Shown here piece after piece: positions 5,590 to 14,881 of a stretch of 20,882 nucleotides of DNA (position 1 is its first letter; each line of letters begins with the position of its first letter). A model generated the notes under the pieces. The model did no database searches. It was not told where the DNA came from and worked only from the letters and a program-made list of their open reading frames with translations. The translations under genes and the position numbers were made by a program. The stretch is from positions 1 through 20,882 of IMG/VR virus record IMGVR_UViG_3300032220_001290; one strand, 5' to 3'. The DNA comes from a virus.

Positions 5590-5613
5590 GATAGGCACCG
5601 CAAGGTGTCTATC
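5590..5613 (+). terminator. Perfect 10-bp hairpin with GCAA tetraloop, terminator fused to a promoter
   Basis: GATAGGCACC (5590-5599) pairs with GGTGTCTATC (5604-5613), with one G-T wobble, around a GCAA loop of the stable GNRA type. TTTATG follows. The hairpin contains the GGCA box of the next promoter in its left arm and half of its -10-like element in its right arm. Confidence 0.75.
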
Positions 5614-5617
5614 TTTA
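5594..5617 (+). promoter_or_regulatory. Putative GGCA-class promoter within a terminator hairpin, predicted leaderless start
   Basis: GGCA at 5594-5597, a 12-base spacer, then TATCTTTA at 5610-5617. The ATG at 5622 lies exactly 12 nt after the first T of the -10-like element, so the transcript may begin at the AUG. Exact match to the shared pattern. Confidence 0.75.
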
Positions 5618-5621
5618 TGTC

Positions 5622-6173
5622 ATGACAAATTTAGTAATACACCCCACAGATCGCAGTACGGATTTTCTAAAACCGATATATGCGAACATAACCGATGCAA
5701 CCATTATTAATGGTGGTGTTAGTAAAGCACAAATCGCTAAACTAATAAGCGAACACGACCGAATCATAATGATGGGACATGGCTCACCATCAGGTTTATT
5801 TAGCTGTGCTAAGTTCGGGGATAATGATTATAGTGGGTTTGTAATTGACTCTACAATGGTACCACTACTATACGAGAAAGAATGTATTGCTATATGGTGT
5901 AATGCAGATAAATTCATGAATCAACATGAATTAAATGGATTTTACAGCGGTATGTTTATTAGTGAGGTAGGCGAAGCAACATATTGTGGATTACCAGGTA
6001 TGGAACAAGAAACAGTAACAGCATCAAACGATTACTTCGCTGAACTATTAGGTGAAGTGATTAATGAGCCATTAAGCGTTATATATGAGCATATTATGGA
6101 TAATTATGGATTACTAACCGAAGATAATCCCGTCGCTAACTACAATCATAATAGATTGTACTTGGCAGAATAA
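5622..6173 (+). CDS. Caspase-like (clan CD) cysteine peptidase candidate
   Basis: The 183-residue protein shows the two diagnostic blocks of clan CD peptidases (caspases, gingipains, legumain, CHAT). One is a hydrophobic strand ending in His-Gly (RIIMMGHG, His53-Gly54). The other is a second hydrophobic strand ending in Cys (CIAIWCNAD, Cys93). The 40-residue spacing is close to that in caspases and legumain. An N-terminal strand (NLVIHPTD) and the helix before the His strand also fit the fold. There is no signal peptide, so it would act in the cytoplasm. Its target is unknown. Weak points are that the residue before Cys93 is Trp rather than the common Ala or Gln, and that no prodomain or partner was found nearby. 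It is expressed from its own promoter, apparently on a leaderless transcript. Confidence 0.6.
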   Translation: MTNLVIHPTDRSTDFLKPIYANITDATIINGGVSKAQIAKLISEHDRIIMMGHGSPSGLFSCAKFGDNDYSGFVIDSTMVPLLYEKECIAIWCNADKFMNQHELNGFYSGMFISEVGEATYCGLPGMEQETVTASNDYFAELLGEVINEPLSVIYEHIMDNYGLLTEDNPVANYNHNRLYLAE

Positions 6174-6187
6174 CAGTTGTATATTGA
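6164..6187 (+). promoter_or_regulatory. Putative GGCA-class promoter
   Basis: GGCA at 6164-6167 (inside the end of the previous gene), a 12-base spacer, then TATATTGA at 6180-6187, followed by CGGTATAAAATTAAAA shared almost exactly with three later sites. The ATG at 6207 is 27 nt after the -10-like element. Confidence 0.8.
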
Positions 6188-6206
6188 CGGTATAAAATTA
6201 AAAAAT

Positions 6207-8377: not shown

Positions 8378-9022
8378 ATGAAAGTAATAGAAAAAGATTT
8401 TGTCGTCGGTGGAGCAAAGCTCGGCACATACAACGCATACGAAGATATTGAACCTGAATTGTTACGTTTCCGTCCTGGACAACGTGTACTCCCAGCACCT
8501 TTTTTTTATGAAACGGGTGATACATACACACTAATTGCTCAACACGAGCCCGGTACAAAGTTTTATCCAAACGGTGGTTTTGAGGTGCGTGATAGTGGGG
8601 GTGGTTCTCGTCACTATGATTTGGATCAAGTTATTGTGCATCCAGCATCATGTAAACACCAACCAACATTAGATTTGATGACGCGACGTGAGGAACGTGA
8701 GGCGGCAGCCGCCGAACGAGCTGTTTTGCGCGGTGATAAGGTGAAGGTTAAGGTTGAGGGTGCGCGTAGAGGACGTCCAGCTATTGATCCAGCTGTTAAG
8801 GCAGCCCGTGAAGCGGAGAAGGTTTTACGCACCCAACGCTCAGGCGGTAAAAGAGGCCGTCCATCTTCTGGTGAGCCCAAGACCCAGACGGTAAAAGCCA
8901 CTAGTGGTAAACGCGGGCGACCAGCTTTGTCCACAACCCAGATTGCAGCTGCAACCGCAGCTAAAGCAGCTACTAGATCACGCTCTGGTGGACGCAGAGG
9001 TAGACCTAAATCATCGCGTTAG
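8378..9022 (+). CDS. DNA-binding protein with four AT-hooks, 214 aa
   Basis: The N-terminal 95 residues form a small unknown domain (VGGAKLGTYNAYEDIEPELL, GDTYTLIAQHEPGTKFY, DLDQVIVHPASCKH). The rest is Ala/Arg/Lys-rich with four AT-hook cores RGRP at 131-134, 159-162, 179-182 and 207-210, each preceded by basic residues. AT-hooks insert the RGR core into the minor groove of AT-rich DNA, so this should bind the phage's own AT-rich DNA, possibly as an organiser or regulator. It lies directly downstream of the T-tract-rich gap. Its base composition is visibly more GC-rich than neighbours, as Ala/Arg/Gly codons require. The AT-hook call is firm; the target sites are unknown. Confidence 0.88.
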   Translation: MKVIEKDFVVGGAKLGTYNAYEDIEPELLRFRPGQRVLPAPFFYETGDTYTLIAQHEPGTKFYPNGGFEVRDSGGGSRHYDLDQVIVHPASCKHQPTLDLMTRREEREAAAAERAVLRGDKVKVKVEGARRGRPAIDPAVKAAREAEKVLRTQRSGGKRGRPSSGEPKTQTVKATSGKRGRPALSTTQIAAATAAKAATRSRSGGRRGRPKSSR

Positions 9023-9601: not shown

Positions 9602-9838
9602 ATGTCAAAAGAAAACAAATCAACAAAGAGAGGTCGTCCAACAGTAAGTACATCAGCACGTCAAGCACGTCTGGAAGCTAGAGCAGCACGCGTTGCGTCT
9701 GGTGGATCGATCGGTAGAGGTCGTCCAGCGAGTGAGGGATCAGCACGTCAAGCTAAATTAGCTATACGCGCAGCTAAGATCGCGTCTGGTGGAACGATCA
9801 AGCGTGGTAGACCAGCTAAGGCTGAGGTAGCCGCATAA
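9602..9838 (+). CDS. Small three-AT-hook protein with internal duplication, 78 aa
   Basis: Almost the whole protein is AT-hook repeat. RGRP cores lie at 10-13, 39-42 and 68-71, exactly 29 residues apart, joined by Ala/Arg helices (SARQARLEARAARVASGGS and SARQAKLAIRAAKIASGGT). The perfect spacing would place three minor-groove contacts on one DNA face or bridge several sites. It is likely an abundant small DNA-coating protein or silencer-like regulator for AT-rich DNA. A strong terminator follows. The DNA-binding assignment is firm; the role is inferred. Confidence 0.88.
   Translation: MSKENKSTKRGRPTVSTSARQARLEARAARVASGGSIGRGRPASEGSARQAKLAIRAAKIASGGTIKRGRPAKAEVAA
9652..9825 (+). repeat. Tandem duplication of an 87-bp unit within the AT-hook gene
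   Basis: Units 9652-9738 and 9739-9825 begin with the same bases (ATCAGCACGTCAAGC) and share further blocks such as GCGTCTGGTGGA. Each encodes one 29-residue linker plus AT-hook. The two copies have diverged at many third positions, so the duplication is not recent. Confidence 0.7.
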
Positions 9839-14110: not shown

Positions 14111-14881
14111 ATGTCATATAACGATAATTACGATATATTTGCTGATGATGATACATTAGCACTTACTAAACGCGGTAAACCACGTAAACGTAAACCAAAA
14201 GAACCCCGTATCTATTTCACTCAAGATACTGAGGATGCTATTGTCGAGTACCTTATTACTGTTGATACAGCTGAGCGTAATCGCATTTACAATGAGCGTA
14301 TTGAATATGGCTTCTATAAATTAGCCGAGAATATTATTCATACGTTTAAATTCTACTACACCGATACTGATACTATTGAAGAACTCAAGCACGAGGTAAT
14401 TACTTTCTTGCTTGAGAAACTTCATCTATATAGACCTGAGAAGGGTAAGGCATTTAGTTACTTTGGTACTATTGCTAAACGTTATCTTATTGTTTATAAT
14501 GAAAATAACTACAAGAAACTTCAAGAAAAAGTTGATGTAGATGAAAGCGATGAAGAACAAATGTCATTATATGAAAATGATAAGAATATTGAAAATATGC
14601 TAGATGGGGATGGGTTTATGAACCAATATATTAAATACATAGACACCCATATATTTAGATTATTTCCTAAAAAACAAGACGCTCAAACAGCAGACGCTGT
14701 TGTTGAATTATTCCGCAAGCGTGAAACACTAGAAATATTTAATAAAAAGGCTTTATACATTTACATACGCGAAATAACAGACGTATCAACTCCTCAGATC
14801 ACTAAAATTATTAAAAAGCTTAAGGTCATATATGTTCATCTATATAATGAATATTATAAGTATGGACATATAAAGATTTAA
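14111..14881 (+). CDS. gp55: T4 gp55-like late-transcription sigma factor
   Basis: The 256-residue protein has a basic N-terminal tail (KRGKPRKRKPKEPR, 20-33). A sigma region-2-like core follows at about 58-130: a helix ERNRIYNERIEYGFYKLAEN, then DTIEELKHEVITFLLEKL, then RPEKGKAFSYFGTIAKRYL, where the FSYF/T-x-I pattern is typical of gp55 relatives. It would join host RNA polymerase core to transcribe structural genes; in T4, gp55 recognises a TATAAATA element with the sliding clamp and gp33. No clear TATAAATA is seen at the late genes here. An inverted repeat covers its start. Assignment to the gp55 group is moderately firm. Confidence 0.75.
   Translation: MSYNDNYDIFADDDTLALTKRGKPRKRKPKEPRIYFTQDTEDAIVEYLITVDTAERNRIYNERIEYGFYKLAENIIHTFKFYYTDTDTIEELKHEVITFLLEKLHLYRPEKGKAFSYFGTIAKRYLIVYNENNYKKLQEKVDVDESDEEQMSLYENDKNIENMLDGDGFMNQYIKYIDTHIFRLFPKKQDAQTADAVVELFRKRETLEIFNKKALYIYIREITDVSTPQITKIIKKLKVIYVHLYNEYYKYGHIKI

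Follow-up and report, generated by a model that had tools for sequence, protein, structure and literature searches.

In animals, caspase-like proteases are central to cell death and to immunity; they are also central to several systems by which bacteria defend themselves against phages. The described enzymes closest to the phage protein considered here are the C25 peptidases (gingipain R and the PorU-type proteins), the CHAT/separase-like immune proteases (SAVED-CHAT and Csx29/TPR-CHAT), and the caspases, metacaspases and paracaspase of family C14. With C25, the phage protein shares a caspase-like fold and the order of the motifs (GHG, then C, with F five residues past the Cys); however, it has no Pfam C25 match, signal peptide or Ig-like domain, and it is 183 residues long, whereas the C25 proteins of the same genomes are open frames of 750–2000 residues. 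The CHAT proteases supply its best structural match, but the phage-borne protein lacks a sensor domain, whether TPR, SAVED or another, and has no Pfam CHAT match. The sheet order and dyad positions of C14 are also shared; unlike those enzymes, the phage protein has no C14 match, no recognised p20/p10 processing site and no death-fold domain. The His-to-Cys spacing of Csx29, 43 residues (H615, C658; PMC10028731), is the commonest spacing in the family to which the phage protein belongs. No described phage system with a caspase-like protease was found in the open-access literature, consistent with the original prediction for this gene, which knew of none.

The gene lies on a 20.9-kb virus fragment, analysed here in full as a window of 20,882 nucleotides. 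Its coding features are as follows.

5622..6173, + strand: predicted caspase-like (clan CD) cysteine peptidase gene, 183 aa, single domain (AlphaFold2, structure comparison, homologues)
5649..5651, + strand: Asp10 codon, invariant acidic residue just past strand b1; candidate S1-pocket residue (93/93 conservation; position in the AlphaFold2 model; role inferred)
5778..5780, + strand: His53 codon CAT, predicted catalytic His, GHG after strand b3 (93/93 conservation; AlphaFold2 strands)
5898..5900, + strand: Cys93 codon TGT, predicted nucleophile, IWCNAD after strand b4 (93/93 conservation; AlphaFold2 strands)

Translation of this ORF, which starts at an ATG and encodes no signal peptide apparent by eye, confirmed the arrangement from which a caspase-like peptidase had been proposed: RIIMMGHG ends with His53-Gly54, CIAIWCNAD holds Cys93, each follows a hydrophobic strand, and the two residues are 40 apart. 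Both proved to be conserved among homologues, being identical in 93 of 93 aligned proteins. The same is true of D10, G52, G54, G58, L59 and M111, and no cysteine of the alignment other than Cys93 is invariant. Because GHG, G58-L59 and C93 are identical in all 93 homologues, the dyad layout, as judged from the alignment, exceeds what would be expected by chance. Across the family, loop insertions vary the His-to-Cys spacing from 33 to 116 residues.

Does the protein adopt the fold that this layout implies? An AlphaFold2 (AF2) model calculated from 68 sequences had a pLDDT of 96.4 and a pTM of 0.92. Its strands (residues 3–6, 26–29, 47–51, 87–91, 106–109 and 179–182, with a hairpin at 58–60/73–75) run in the order b1-a1-b2-a2-b3(His)-hairpin-a3-b4(Cys)-b5-b6, which is the strand order of caspases. 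Strand b3 (47–51) leads into G52-H53-G54 and strand b4 (87–91) into W92-C93; as in clan CD enzymes, His-Gly and Cys thus directly follow the hydrophobic strands b3 and b4, respectively, and the whole forms a caspase-like a/b/a sandwich in two AF2 models. Foldseek alone ranked clan CD structures weakly (best 1.2e-3), with flavodoxin-like folds intermixed. We therefore draw on VIA-align, a re-alignment of Foldseek's top 1000 chains, from which the best 50 PDB entries were listed. All 50 were caspase-fold proteins, with Z ranging from 12.1 to 8.7 over residues 1..183. The best match was SAVED-CHAT (Z 12.1, rmsd 3.1, 156 residues); also present were the gingipain RgpB (Z 10.7), DdvA (10.5), whose matched domain we take to be caspase-like from its place in this list, MALT1 (10.0), separase (9.7), caspase-7 (9.6), legumain (9.3) and Craspase TPR-CHAT (9.0).

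The second AF2 model was that of a Prevotella relative (locus L112), calculated from 18 cellular sequences with the phage proteins left out, some of the 18 also being rows of the 68-sequence alignment. This model had a pLDDT of 94.9, and its best 50 entries were again exclusively caspase-fold (best Z 10.5), with Raptor, c-FLIP and GPI transamidase among the structural matches. Since two models from different query proteins concur, the predicted fold of the 183-residue protein is almost certainly caspase-like, and the confident caspase-like core anticipated by the original prediction emerged from structure prediction and fold search alike. Among the viral structures of BFVD there was no significant match, a Pithovirus "Caspase" appearing only at E 0.07.

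Sequence comparisons gave a different picture. The 183-residue protein matched no Pfam family at E up to 10, and over 68 members of the family a single stray C50 match (E 0.13) was the only one to clan CD; no significant match to Pfam Peptidase_C14, C25, C50 or CHAT was obtained. PHROGs yielded no match for the protein and no family common to more than two of the 68 members, and no PADLOC model matched it. Among PDB sequences, the single protein retrieved nothing meaningful and the 68-member profile no relative. In hhalign comparisons with C25, C14 and CHAT domains from the same bacterial genomes and with six unrelated control families, matches were weak throughout. The closest was to bacterial C25 (gingipain/PorU-type; probability 14%, E 0.002, 57 columns), with His53 and Cys93 falling on the GHG and Cys of that family; against C14, GHG alone was aligned, and the control families reached at most 4.5%. 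The sensitive profile search that the original prediction had put forward thus reached no known clan CD family significantly. By prediction, the protein behaves as a clan CD peptidase, yet by sequence it stands outside the named families. Unmatched by any model in Pfam, PHROGs or PADLOC, the gene is, on sequence criteria, a member of a putative clan CD family undescribed so far.

The single protein retrieved eight relatives among viral contigs. An alignment query of the viral contigs found 83, of which the best 80 were taken as loci, and the same kind of query gave 34 matches in cellular genomes, almost exclusively from Bacteroidota, with one from Leptospirales. The carriers of the family are T4-like Bacteroidota phages, Lak megaphages, in which the gene has a distant form (23–24% identity), and Bacteroidota genomes; a plasmid search found no match to the protein. 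With a dN/dS of 0.094 against its nearest relative (0.05–0.26 for nine other pairs), the gene is, by this estimate, under purifying selection. A tree of 71 proteins shows the cellular and viral labels in clusters that nonetheless interleave, requiring six changes. One group of the tree consists of the Prevotella-type copies from the gut and a single metagenomic "phage" contig; the copies of environmental bacteria are nested among those of phages. Given this interleaving, the gene has probably passed between phages and hosts more than once. Might the bacterial copies be mis-binned contigs of T4-like phages? The S77 marker, used to test this, was found in 0 of 16 genomes; the copies look cellular, although fragmentary contigs may account for some of them. 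A Prevotellamassilia genome also holds a second, degenerate copy that is interrupted by a stop (G018:C232:53401-53607), and one Leptospirales genome has two intact copies (G019 C24, C68).

The predicted fold, the invariant dyad and the clan CD/caspase-fold structural matches all support the gene as a candidate caspase-like cysteine peptidase. We consider it probable that the product is an active, single-domain, cytosolic clan CD endopeptidase, accessory and non-structural, that most likely serves phage-host conflict. Catalytic competence of the predicted His53/Cys93 dyad is very likely. In the proposed mechanism, His53 would serve as general base and Cys93 would attack the scissile carbonyl; both residues lie at the central sheet's carboxyl end, an arrangement shared with gingipains, separase, CHAT proteases and caspases. 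The b3-b4 loop tolerates insertions, as would be expected of a substrate-side loop. The location of the S1 residue in clan CD enzymes, with gingipain R and MALT1 as the models, is the background to a further, tentative suggestion: Asp10, which is invariant and lies where b1 ends, may shape S1 for a basic P1 residue. Since a sensor domain is absent, the choice of substrate would depend on the enzyme alone or on a partner supplied by the host.

The protein would act in the infection phase and cleave a small number of the infected cell's proteins, perhaps just one; the target may belong to the host, which is the likeliest case, or to a rival phage. We regard a host-directed role as an even proposition, and counter-defence specifically as a conjecture that falls somewhat short of it. 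More speculative still is the idea that Bacteroidota phages carry the protease expressly to inactivate, by cleavage, an immune pathway of bacteria, perhaps a pathway with a caspase-like protease of its own; if true, viruses of bacteria would be using the caspase fold in a way that is new to description. A family that is conserved, minimal and stand-alone, that phages have in common with their hosts and that lies outside Pfam and PHROGs provides a small enzyme that lends itself to study and an immediate route to asking which proteins phages cleave during infection. As the family spans 160-kb T4-like and 540-kb Lak phages, one substrate could explain the gene in many uncultured viruses.

Might the protein instead be a weapon against competitors or one serving the host, through superinfection exclusion or as a phage-borne defence or abortive effector? 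We consider this unlikely, though it is the best of the alternatives. Its fold is common to the immune effectors SAVED-CHAT and Craspase TPR-CHAT, and some bacterial copies are found near restriction and candidate defence genes. The Prolixibacteraceae copy adjoins PDC-S11, a candidate defence gene, with HKD+Snf2 helicase and type IIG-like methylase genes nearby, and the Chitinophagaceae copy has a Mrr-type restriction helicase gene within 2 kb and a WYL regulator nearby. In Prevotella and relatives (L112 604-7093), the gene is followed by DSP-phosphatase-like and LMW phosphatase genes and by an AAA ATPase gene resembling IetA (PADLOC) of the IetAS defence system, in which an ATPase is paired with a protease; the preceding genes encode an NrtR-type Nudix protein, a DUF1810 fusion and a T4 gp30.3-like/UPF0227 fusion. 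The Daejeonella copy lies upstream of vWA and SbcD/SbcC-like genes (SbcC by eye), and several other bacterial copies have housekeeping-like or metabolic surroundings. These cellular neighbourhoods, with defence genes at two loci, may point to conflict biology, and they also speak for the phage-host conflict reading preferred above. The IetA resemblance, however, may merely reflect the common AAA fold. Moreover, the phages look lytic and T4-like, with no lysogeny genes seen within the window, and their copies stand alone, with neither a sensor domain nor a conserved partner gene: neighbour clustering of the phage loci gave no constant partner, the commonest neighbour being DUF932 (20 loci).

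Less probable again is that fold and dyad were kept in a protein other than an endopeptidase, such as a transamidase, a ligase, another thiol enzyme or a binder like Raptor or c-FLIP. GPI transamidase, Raptor and c-FLIP are indeed among the matches of the second model, and the protein is short, with no maturation site or sensor domain seen. Against this, both dyad residues are invariant in the 93 sequences; the pseudo-proteases of caspase fold known to us have lost the dyad.

Head maturation by proteases is common in phages, the window has baseplate genes 9–15 kb downstream of the caspase-like gene, and virion processing was among the roles first proposed for it. A virion or prohead maturation protease is nevertheless very improbable, and the candidacy was rejected because a gp21-type prohead protease is encoded elsewhere in the genomes concerned. 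A protease of the T4 gp21 family (PF03420) scored above the curated cut-off in 12 of 12 related phage records, each time tens of kb from the caspase-like gene, and S77 matches in these records never fell on that gene. The gp21-type enzyme, although a phage protease of the same genomes, is thus the product of a separate gene; the catalytic residues of S77 are unrelated to the clan CD dyad. Bacterial genomes carry the caspase-like gene as well, and in 16 of 16 no PF03420 match was seen. Furthermore, the gene is accessory, since no relative of it could be found in Flavobacterium phage immuto, whose baseplate protein (44% identity) makes this phage the nearest isolate. Finally, an ordinary Rossmann-like or flavodoxin-like protein that resembles a caspase by coincidence is scarcely credible: flavodoxin-like folds were among Foldseek's first matches, but re-alignment of the same 1000 chains left only caspase folds in the best 50 for both models, and the GHG and C motifs are invariant at both catalytic positions.

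The caspase-like gene sits in a block of small same-strand genes upstream of the baseplate genes, one of which gave a gp25 match; a 608-residue protein of the window shares 44% identity with a protein annotated as baseplate wedge. The block includes non-specific endonuclease, AdoMet decarboxylase-like and DUF932 genes. The Endonuclease_NS protein (1577-2206) has an apparent signal peptide, and its ORF overlaps the S-adenosylmethionine decarboxylase-like ORF at 2206-2604. By eye, ORFs 8378-9022 and 9602-9838 contain four and three (K/R)RGRP motifs, respectively, which are AT-hook-like; these may possibly encode DNA-binding proteins. The product of 14111-14881, which has no Pfam match, looks by eye like a late sigma factor of the T4 gp55 type.

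The following elements were noted upstream of the gene and elsewhere in the window.

5590..5613, + strand: terminator-like hairpin, 10-bp stem, GCAA loop, just upstream of the ATG (fold z -5.85; covariation)
5610..5621, + strand: TATCTTTATGTC, candidate promoter-like box abutting the ATG (12-mer barely above chance in the window)
2864, 6180, 9309, 10115, 10620, 10948, 11240, + strand: TATWTTCACGGTATAAAA sites, mostly just upstream of ORF starts

The hairpin is kept with compensatory changes in eight relatives; in their alignment, 90% of cells are paired and six are double-change cells, and the covariation score was reached in 0 of 500 shuffles. Terminator-like hairpins were also seen by eye directly before the ORFs at 2891, 3933, 7382 and 9906. 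The middle-type promoter that had been ascribed to the peptidase gene found no clear support, as TATCTTTATGTC is barely above chance and the clear recurrent promoter-like sequence, TATWTTCACGGTATAAAA (seven sites in the window vs. 0.17 expected), precedes other genes, including the one that follows the peptidase. This last site, at 6180-6197, suggests that the following gene starts at ATG 6208 rather than at TTG 6177.
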